This document shows, piece after piece, positions 20,985 to 33,962 of a DNA stretch of 64,000 bases (positions are counted from its first letter, which is position 1; each line of letters begins with the position of its first letter). The stretch is from Acididesulfobacillus acetoxydans (GTDB taxonomy: Bacteria > Bacillota > Desulfitobacteriia > Desulfitobacteriales > Desulfitobacteriaceae), in NCBI RefSeq assembly GCF_902729405.1, contig NZ_LR746496.1, positions 930,001-994,000 of the forward strand, written 5' to 3'. The position numbers were made by a program, and so were the translations under genes. The notes below the pieces were generated by a model, which was given only the letters and a program-made list of their open reading frames with translations, was not told the origin of the DNA and did not search any database.

Positions 20985-21340
20985 TTACAGGCACTCTTCA
21001 ATGTAATGCCGGATAGTCTCAGCCGGGACGTTCCCGGCTGTCCCCACGTAGCAGCCCGGTGCCCATAGCGTTCCTCAGCCTGTCTTTTATGCCAGATTGG
21101 GAAATGCCATGAGTACCCGTCTAGCTGGCCAGTCCTTAAACGCTTTTACAATCTTGGCGGTGCGTATTTGGGTGGTGCAGATACGAACAGGTGAACATGG
21201 TCCGGCCTGAAATATTGACCATGTGCATGAAGTTTTTGAGGAAGGCGCTCTCATCCCCGGAATCGAATTCCGAGGTTTTCTCGCGCACGTTCTATAACCG
21301 CTCGGCAAGCCATATTTCTCGGCACCGGTCGTCATCTGTG
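20985..21340 (-). pseudogene. tnpA: IS200/IS605-type TnpA transposase relic
   Basis: Reading the minus strand gives PDHVHLFVSAPPKYAP, with the HUH motif (HVH), of a Y1 transposase. A frameshift then leads to TAKIVKAFKDWPARRVLMAFPNLA, two in-frame stops close together, and finally GTLWAPGCYVGTAGNVPAETIRHYIEECL, which holds the nucleophile Tyr region. The N-terminal third is scrambled by further frameshifts. The element is clearly dead. It is relevant because the hairpin repeat families in this window resemble ends mobilised by such enzymes. Flanking ends were not located. Confidence 0.8.
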
Positions 21341-27321: not shown

Positions 27322-27466
27322 ACCTCCGGGGGGAGCCGCCGGATGCGGAGGACCGTGGTATCCTGGTTAAGAGCGAGTCATGTCCAAGCTCAAGGGAAGG
27401 CAACGGATAGTCGCGATGCCTTTTCTGGAGTGTGCAATGTTGGGTGAAGGCAAGAAAGGGGGGGAG

Positions 27467-27510
27467 GGGGTCTTTCCTCTCCTGACTGGAGTCAGAAGTG
27501 TCCGGGCCCC
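27467..27510 (+). promoter_or_regulatory. 44-nt conserved hairpin leader element, copy A
   Basis: The stretch ends six bases before the EamA start codon. It is 37/44 identical to copy B (33150-33193). It folds as an outer 7-bp stem GGGGTCT/GGGCCCC (two G-U pairs) and an inner hairpin CTGACT-GG-AGTCAG. Differences between the copies keep both stems. No ribosome binding site lies between element and ATG. It is either a cis-regulatory RNA or a mobile palindrome. Confidence 0.6.
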
Positions 27511-27516
27511 TGGGTT

Positions 27517-28425
27517 ATGAAGATATCGCGTTCATTGTGGGCTGATCTTTTGCTGATTTTTGTCGCTCTCATTTGGGGTCTCAGCTTTACGGCCGTCAAG
27601 GACGCCATTGGGATTATCCCGCCGATGGAATTTATCGGCTTAAGGTTCATGCTCTCAGCCCTGGTGCTGGGAGCCATCTTTTTCAACCGGCTCAAGAAGA
27701 TGACCCGTCATGAATTACTGGCCGGTTGTGTAATTGGCTTGTTCCTTGCCCTCGGCTTTCTCGCCCAGACCATAGGCCTGGCCTACACGACCCCCGGAAA
27801 ATCAGGCTTTCTAACCAGTTTGTACATTATTATCGTTCCCTTTCTGACTTCGTTGTTTTATAAGAAGTTCGTCGGCTGGATGCCCATCGCTGCGGCAGTT
27901 TTGGCCTTTGTGGGAGTATGCTTGATCTCACTGGCCGGAAATGACGTATTGGGGTTTGGCCAAGGGGATCTTCTCTCCATCCTGTGTGCCTTTGCCTTTG
28001 CCTTGCAGATCTTGGCGGTGGCGCACTATGTCAAGAGGTATAATGTGTACGTTTTAACCGTGATCCAGATTGTTGTCACGGGGATTATCAGTCTGGGCTA
28101 TTCATTTGCGTTCGAACCGGTTACTTGGGTGCTGCCCGCTACGGTTTGGCTGGCTATGATTTATACCGGCCTGATGGCAACCTGCTTTGCCTTTTTGGCG
28201 CAGAATTTTGCCCAAAGACATACTTCCTCATCCCATGCGGCTCTGCTGCTTGGCTTGGAAGCTCCTTTTTCCTTGCTCTTCTCTGTCATCATCTGGGGTG
28301 AAGTCCTCACTGCCAGGAGCATTATCGGCAGTTCACTGATCTTTGCGGCGATTTTGCTGGTCGAGGTGATCCCGTCATTTTGGCAGCCGGCTGGAGAGAG
28401 GAATACGGACACGACCGCCTCATAG
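27517..28425 (+). CDS. EamA/DMT-family transporter
   Basis: A 302-residue membrane protein with ten predicted helices in two EamA repeats. It shows LLLIFVALIWGLSFTAVKDA at the first helix, a WGxxF block typical of the drug/metabolite transporter superfamily, and the second-repeat equivalent VWLAMIYTGLMATCFAFLAQNFAQRHTSSSHAALL. The substrate is unknown; amino acids or metabolites are usual. The ATG has no ribosome binding site within 15 bases; a purine-rich GGGGGGGAGGGGG stretch lies 50 bases upstream, inside and before the hairpin element. It stands alone. Confidence 0.92.
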   Translation: MKISRSLWADLLLIFVALIWGLSFTAVKDAIGIIPPMEFIGLRFMLSALVLGAIFFNRLKKMTRHELLAGCVIGLFLALGFLAQTIGLAYTTPGKSGFLTSLYIIIVPFLTSLFYKKFVGWMPIAAAVLAFVGVCLISLAGNDVLGFGQGDLLSILCAFAFALQILAVAHYVKRYNVYVLTVIQIVVTGIISLGYSFAFEPVTWVLPATVWLAMIYTGLMATCFAFLAQNFAQRHTSSSHAALLLGLEAPFSLLFSVIIWGEVLTARSIIGSSLIFAAILLVEVIPSFWQPAGERNTDTTAS

Positions 28426-33043: not shown

Positions 33044-33143
33044 AGACGATAGTTGAACACAATGAAGAAAGGAAAGGAAAGAAAGCGGAGGAAATCAAAA
33101 ATGCAAATTAGACGATAGTTGAACATAATGAAGAAAGGAAAGG
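33044..33143 (+). repeat. direct repeat of 34 bp, period 66
   Basis: AGACGATAGTTGAACAC and the following AATGAAGAAAGGAAAGG occur at 33044-33077 and again at 33110-33143, 33 of 34 bases identical. A purine-rich spacer lies between. The second copy abuts hairpin element B. The array fills the gap between the glycosyltransferase and the nucleotidyltransferase. Confidence 0.9.
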
Positions 33144-33149
33144 GGAAAA

Positions 33150-33193
33150 GGGGCCTTTCGTCTCCTGACTCAGGTCAGAAGTATCCAGGCCCC
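33150..33193 (+). promoter_or_regulatory. 44-nt conserved hairpin leader element, copy B
   Basis: It folds as a perfect outer stem GGGGCCT/AGGCCCC and an inner hairpin CTGAC-TCAG-GTCAG, ending seven bases before the ATG of the nucleotidyltransferase. Compared with copy A (27467-27510), the outer stem replaces U-G pairs with C-G and U-A, so pairing is kept. There is no ribosome binding site between element and ATG. Confidence 0.6.
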
Positions 33194-33200
33194 GATAACC

Positions 33201-33962
33201 ATGAAAACGTTGATCTTGGCCGCGGGCAAAGGCACCCGCCTGCGCCCTCTGACCGCCTATGTGCCTAAACCGATGCTGCCGCTGCAGGGCAAACCGCTGC
33301 TGGAATGGGTTCTTCTGCCTCTGATTGCGGCCGGAATGAGGGATTTTGTGCTGGCCGTCAGTTACCTGGCCGAACAGATCGTGAACTATTTCGGCGACGG
33401 CGCCCGATGGGGTGTGACAATCAGTTATAGCAGGGGCCCCGAACCTGCCGGCAAGGCGGGAGAAATCTGGCGGGCCCGTGAGCTCTTACATAGCGGGGAC
33501 GACCCGTTTTTGCTCGTGCCGGGGGATACCATTGCCCACCTGGATTACCGGGAACTGCTGGATTTTCACCGGTCCCACGGGGGTCCGGTGACCGTGGCGT
33601 TTTCCAGACGATACCGGCTGGAAGTGGGAACGGCGGAACTGGATGAAAAAAACCGGGTGACAAGATTTCGGGAAAAGGCTAACTTGGACCAGCCGGTGAG
33701 CACAGGCGCCTATGTCTTGGACGAGCGTATTTTGTCCCAGATCGAAGCCTTGCAGCCGGAAGGACGGGAAGTGGATTTGCCGGCTGAAGTTTTTCCCCGC
33801 CTTTTGGCCCAAGGGACGCCGATATACGGGTATGTAGGCGACTATTCCTGGTGGGACGTGGGACGGATGAACGACTATGAAAAGCTGACCGGACTTTCCC
33901 CGGCGCAAGCCGGCGAAATTTTAGGCGGGGGAGGGCGAGATGGGCATCTTCAAAGCCTGTGA
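33201..33962 (+). CDS. NDP-sugar pyrophosphorylase (nucleotidyltransferase)
   Basis: A 253-residue single-domain enzyme that joins a sugar 1-phosphate with an NTP. MKTLILAAGKGTRLRPLT is the nucleotide-binding loop with the catalytic Arg; PKPMLPLQGKPLLEW follows, LVPGDTI carries the metal-binding Asp, and WWDVGRMNDYEKL ends the fold. It lacks the left-handed helix acyltransferase domain of GlmU. Glucose- or mannose-1-phosphate is the likely substrate, given the mutase whose start overlaps its end by 23 bases. The start lacks a ribosome binding site and is preceded by hairpin element B. Confidence 0.92.
   Translation: MKTLILAAGKGTRLRPLTAYVPKPMLPLQGKPLLEWVLLPLIAAGMRDFVLAVSYLAEQIVNYFGDGARWGVTISYSRGPEPAGKAGEIWRARELLHSGDDPFLLVPGDTIAHLDYRELLDFHRSHGGPVTVAFSRRYRLEVGTAELDEKNRVTRFREKANLDQPVSTGAYVLDERILSQIEALQPEGREVDLPAEVFPRLLAQGTPIYGYVGDYSWWDVGRMNDYEKLTGLSPAQAGEILGGGGRDGHLQSL

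Follow-up and report, generated by a model that had tools for sequence, protein, structure and literature searches.

The window, that is, the whole 64,000-nucleotide stretch of Acididesulfobacillus acetoxydans DNA that was analysed (G+C 54.0%), contains two copies, A and B, of a 44-nt hairpin, each directly in front of an ATG start codon. Copy A (27,467–27,510, + strand) is in the sense orientation to a gene for an EamA-family transporter (27,517–28,425, + strand; Pfam PF00892, E = 4e-35) and is separated from it by a 6-nt linker (27,511–27,516, + strand); copy B (33,150–33,193, + strand) is in the sense orientation to a sugar-nucleotidyltransferase gene (33,201–33,962, + strand; Pfam PF00483, E = 8e-41), with a 7-nt linker, GATAACC, in between (33,194–33,200, + strand). 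Both genes begin with ATGAA, i.e. with a 5'-TTCAT-3' pentamer on the − strand (27,517–27,521 and 33,201–33,205, respectively). An earlier note, written from the letters of this DNA, had described the two elements as 84% identical over 44 bases, standing at the same place before unrelated genes and ending 6–7 bases before ATG, all of which agrees with our counts (37 of the 44 positions identical, 84.1%). The same note had the genes lacking a ribosome binding site; there is indeed no GGAGG after either element, but a Shine-Dalgarno (SD)-like purine tract lies immediately 5' of each hairpin (A, AAGAAAGGGGGGG; B, GGAAAGGGGAAAA). The tract adjoining copy A (27,451–27,466, + strand; GCAAGAAAGGGGGGGA) matches the AGAAAGGRGG found in other copies, and the tract of copy B (AAGGAAAGGGGAAAA) belongs to the segment 33,031–33,149 (+ strand), the remainder of a stretch of about 180 nt that is missing at the orthologous locus of a congener and in which no recognisable right end was found.

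Copies A and B have a common predicted fold, in which an internal loop separates an outer 7-bp stem from an inner hairpin. Folding energies were −19.7 kcal/mol for A and −22.1 kcal/mol for B, with a z-score of −3.9 for B and only −1.6 for A. As claimed previously, the differences in the outer stem preserve pairing: pairs 5 and 7, both U-G in A, are C-G and U-A in B. The core common to A and B occurs exactly twice in the 64-kb window, and even a single match at up to 3 mismatches was seen in 0 of 100 dinucleotide shuffles of the window.

Searches with a model built from seven copies (R1), a wider model (R2) and a hairpin-only model (R3), all trained on start-proximal copies and all matching copy A, together with BLAST using copy B, revealed a dispersed family with about 15 copies in the genome that contains the window (4,520,225 bp, one contig; G000) and about 10 in its congener G001, which is about 89% identical. 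Among the relatives, strong leaders were found in G001 only, and G004 has a weaker, credible match directly before an ATG. Across the two species, about a dozen genes have a retained hairpin before the start codon. The products of the downstream genes, as assigned by Pfam, comprise EamA, nucleotidyltransferase, deacetylase, a [2Fe-2S] subunit, a penicillin-binding protein (PBP), a hydrolase, Ham1, a CAAX protease and thiamine pyrophosphokinase (TPK). In both species, diverged copies precede the TPK gene and a glutamine-amidotransferase-like gene; the hairpin before the TPK gene (L118/L155) is enlarged in both. In an alignment of 16 family copies, 92% of the pair cells are standard, and two-sided changes occur in 7 of the 14 pairs; cells with two-sided changes number 16, against a shuffle value of 6.0 and no more than 4 after sliding. 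Conservation of the internal and apical loops in the family alignment is not strong. Two results that would count against the earlier proposal, matches without relation to genes and a lack of pairing conservation, were both looked for, and the proposal withstood both.

When read in the sense orientation, the family shows a consistent order, namely, SD-like tract, outer stem, inner hairpin, 7-nt linker and start codon. A fixed distance from start codons, which the note had suggested checking, was seen, with exactly 7 nt between hairpin and start codon in 20 of the 21 copies counted, copy A being the exception; the 7-nt distance also holds at non-ATG starts, TTG (L053/L075) and GTG (L058/L115). 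Most copies have an SD-like tract shortly 5' of the stem, and in most the tract is predicted to be mostly unpaired while the hairpin forms. The tract moves with the element: copies B and L048, neither of which has a counterpart in the congener, are 88% identical over 66 nt including the tract. Thus, with an SD tract on its 5' side and a start codon 7 nt to its 3' side, the hairpin is a structured spacer, and, judging from sequence, a translational role is likely. The covariation lends indirect support to the idea that efficient translation may require an intact stem. For copies A, L080 and L115, the predicted minimum free energy (MFE) structure is a competing fold in which the SD tract or the stem is otherwise paired (in the 80-nt context of A, it is the purine tract). 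We also modelled pairing between the SD tract and the internal loop as a general switch; such a switch was rejected, being favoured in A, L080 and L115 and neutral or disfavoured in most copies. In L048, L050, L057, L063, L078, L080 and L082, the linker often reads G-ATG-ATN or similar, and its ATG is a second in-frame ATG two codons ahead of the native start, e.g. GATGATCATGAA.

Two intact 1.4-kb elements elsewhere in the genome (loci L019 and L020) open with the family hairpin directly after TTCAT, the same pentamer that lies on the − strand at the gene starts following copies A and B. Both encode a TnpB protein with the domains OrfB_IS605 (PF01385) and TNB, Cas12f1-like (PF07282), each above its cut-off, and both lie inside genes, one in an LDH gene and one in a SEC-C-type gene (names assigned by eye). 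The elements begin immediately after TTCAT, end in TTGAA and produce no target duplication; when the flanks are joined, both host reading frames are exactly restored ('AEILHSILSEIEKYEKDAILFIVTNPVDVLTT' for the LDH gene and 'ADLFTFPSGADMGQLRLTENEDGFNTVLTEHPEVKILYERR' for the other). Subterminal hairpins are present at both ends; the left end (LE) scores 82.9 bits, and the right-end (RE) hairpin, CTCTGACTTTAGTCAGGGG, is matched by positions 25–44 of R1 in both elements. Comparison of these sequences argues strongly that copies A and B, read on the − strand, are LE hairpins of an IS200/IS605-type element, and the evidence for a mobile origin of the hairpins in general is likewise strong. Members of the IS200/IS605 family are expected to have a guide sequence at the foot of the hairpin that pairs with the cleavage site; by eye, the CAA before the RE hairpin could pair in this way with the TTG of TTGAA, and no such pairing is evident at the LE. 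A tandemly duplicated 1.66-kb repeat is nested within the element in L020 (7235–10562) and splits it; a part of this repeat also occurs at the L019 edge.

The elements carry tnpB only, with no tnpA; TnpB-only (IS1341-like) members of the IS200/IS605 family are known to be without TnpA. No element combining TnpA with the family LE was found, the nine Y1_Tnp matches elsewhere in the genome all being without such an LE. The TnpB protein had no match at E < 1e-60 in the 73 other genomes of the order that were searched, one of them that of the congener with the leaders; thus, the TnpB element cannot be taken as the proven parent of the solo hairpins and may be a sister. Other IS605-type ends in the two genomes (L060, L061, L122–L124) have a similar geometry (5-nt target, 7-nt linker, two-part stem) and a similar inner hairpin sequence. 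A search of the element strand out to 420 nt from A and from B gave no RE-like sequence, and the only solo copies with an adjacent RE-like sequence are L055 and, doubtfully, L050, that of the latter belonging to another repeat family.

TTCAT and ATGAA, the latter a frequent gene start, are reverse complements, so that when the element inserts antisense to a gene at its start, the ATGAA remains intact and the hairpin comes to lie directly before it. Empty sites of this kind were found at orthologous loci. At the congener's counterpart of the copy B locus (L156), GCAGGAGTGAGGCTG is followed immediately by ATGAAG (GGCTG joined to ATGAAGACG); the congener orthologues of the genes at L048 and L050 have no hairpin and ATGAA at the start; and, conversely, G000 has an empty site, AAAAAGGAGGCCTTGTGA followed by ATGAAG, where the congener carries a copy at L078. 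The latter (G001 L078:1501–1582) is an expanded leader, its inner hairpin doubled, in front of a sensor-type gene. Thus, since their divergence, the two species have gained or lost copies. These empty sites, together with the same end on the TnpB elements and the precise insertion at TTCAT, lend good support to one of the two readings that the earlier note had considered unusual, a mobile palindrome that lands at start codons.

The two species have at least seven gene-linked copies in common, before genes that encode EamA (A/L116), the [2Fe-2S] subunit, the penicillin-binding protein, the hydrolase, Ham1/RdgB, the CAAX protease and ArgH (the last identified by eye). In seven orthologous pairs, the outer stem retains 5–7 of its 7 base pairs, and the inner hairpins differ between orthologues, most clearly between A and its congener counterpart L116, which has a shorter, different inner hairpin on a preserved outer stem. 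The other reading in the note, a conserved RNA leader, is supported only in a weaker form, in that several orthologous copies have covarying stems between the SD tract and the start codon; as a riboswitch it is unlikely given that the downstream genes do not share a function.

Taken together, we consider it probable that these hairpins are stranded left ends of an IS200/IS605-type element that were retained at gene starts as portable ribosome-binding sites, or structured spacers. The element would insert 3' of 5'-TTCAT-3', presumably mobilised by TnpA acting in trans, and an antisense insertion at an ATGAA gene start would leave the ATGAA intact, with the LE hairpin separating it from the upstream region; subsequently, the body of the element would be lost and the hairpin would stay. 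In the sense direction, the LE would provide an SD-like tract (AGAAAGGRGG-like), a hairpin and a 7-nt linker, and so could act as a portable ribosome-binding site. By folding, the hairpin would keep the SD and the AUG near each other across 44–50 nt, as in T4 genes 38 and 25, and ribosomes would use the 5' SD through the folded hairpin. A broader formulation, which is possible and which we advance tentatively, is that this is a transposon that targets the antisense of the start codon, with an LE that faces outward and carries its own ribosome-binding site, replacing the translation signal of the gene rather than destroying it, and that many such ends were retained by the host as working structured leaders. 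Insertion sequences are usually viewed as breaking genes or bringing promoters; here, an IS605-type end appears to bring a translation start signal. Furthermore, the target sequence appears to aim the end at start codons, which would make a simple transposon nearly harmless. Two close species provide at least seven gene-linked pairs of orthologous copies, plus four pairs that differ by presence or absence, which makes the family a natural experiment in structured SD-AUG spacers as well.

The main rival to retention as a portable ribosome-binding site is that the hairpins are transposon debris of no benefit to the genes, i.e. ends-only derivatives that are found at starts because TTCAT equals antisense ATGAA and insertions within genes have been purged. 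This explanation is unlikely, albeit one to be taken seriously: the equality of the pentamers accounts for most of the position, the TnpB copies do sit inside genes, presence and absence differ between the species, no recognisable gene follows L055, which has a right-end-like sequence, and L059 adjoins a tRNA cluster. However, ATGAA starts make up only 6 of the 157 TTCAT sites in the window (6 of 27 outside genes, a rough count limited to the 64 kb and a crude gene call), compared to 8 of the 10 non-TnpB R3 matches (E up to 0.1) in this genome that lie at starts, an excess with a probability of about 2e-4 even under the 6/27 rate, albeit for a model trained on start copies. Target choice and the purging of gene disruptions explain much, but probably not all, of the start-codon position. 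Also against debris, outer-stem pairing is retained while the inner hairpins change, and the SD tract and the 7-nt linker are conserved, TTG and GTG starts included.

Conceivably, the direction of capture was the reverse, such that a native, trans-regulated RNA leader (a riboswitch or a protein-binding hairpin) coordinating these genes was acquired by the TnpB element as its end. The covariation and orthologous retention, the presence of leaders in a congener without such a TnpB element, and, in some copies, a possible on/off switch formed by pairing of the SD tract with the internal loop on its 5' side are all compatible with a native leader, which we nevertheless regard as very improbable: the downstream genes are unrelated in function, the internal and apical loops are not strongly conserved, unlike a ligand pocket, and the inner hairpin sequence and geometry recur in other IS605-type ends of the two genomes. 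Moreover, Rfam 15 gave no match at the gathering threshold and only chance-level matches in a permissive search, in line with the note's failure to recognise a known riboswitch. A scan of 84,980 species genomes (the window's own genome records perhaps excluded) for the exact pattern gave only two chance matches, both within a single Arsukibacterium gene. Least probable, with a very small chance of being correct, are repeats of the REP/RAYT type, single palindromes spread by a domesticated TnpA_REP. Such repeats would fit dispersed single hairpins that lack a partner end and lie mostly beside genes in a genome with Y1 transposases, whereas here TnpB elements have the hairpin at one end and a distinct right end at the other, and none of the copies scanned is beside a Y1 transposase.

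The retained left ends proposed here can be compared with three known systems. Elements of the IS200/IS605 family insert 3' of a tetra- or pentanucleotide and have a hairpin at each end (PMC7290912). The TnpB elements described here resemble the family, in its IS1341-like, TnpB-carrying form, in their subterminal hairpins, the fixed pentanucleotide 5' of the insertion, a TnpB with OrfB_IS605 and TNB, and the lack of terminal inverted repeats and target duplication; they differ in the target, which is TTCAT rather than TTAC or TTGAT, in the missing tnpA, and in the predominance, among the copies, of solo left ends located at start codons. Short non-autonomous derivatives made of hairpin ends are also known as PATEs or ends-only IS605 MITEs, e.g. 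in Halanaerobium hydrogeniformans (PMC7290912); however, a PATE keeps both ends, whereas A and B have only a recognisable left end, located between the SD tract and the start codon. With respect to translation, the closest parallel is T4 genes 38 and 25, in which the SD would be too far from the AUG but for an intervening hairpin, which makes the distance workable (reviewed in PMC3014915). The layout is the same, SD first, then the hairpin and, shortly after it, the start codon; but the T4 cases are single phage genes with spacers of 22–27 nt, and the hairpin described here measures about 44 nt, derives from a transposon and is dispersed in front of many unrelated genes.

Several other features were observed. 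In the window, positions 20,994–21,173 on the − strand (G000:C1:950994–951173) contain a degraded fragment of a Y1 transposase (TnpA) with two in-frame stops. Upstream of copy B, within the stretch missing from the congener, two 34-nt direct repeats (33,044–33,077 and 33,110–33,143) are 97% identical and 66 nt apart; each contains ATAGTTGAAC, which resembles the right-end tip of the TnpB element in the opposite orientation. A second repeat family, ACCGAATGCTTCGCGCGGAAGCCCCTGGCTTCAGACGNCTTTAGGCATGGGGTGGTTGAC, of about 65 nt, has about 14 copies in this genome and a few in the congener, and is also found on the inner side of L050; its loci are L163, L165, L167 and L169–L177, e.g. G000:C1:2952803–2952875 and 3254869–3254933. 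No TnpB-like ORF was seen alongside these repeats, which look like another IS605-type ends-only element.
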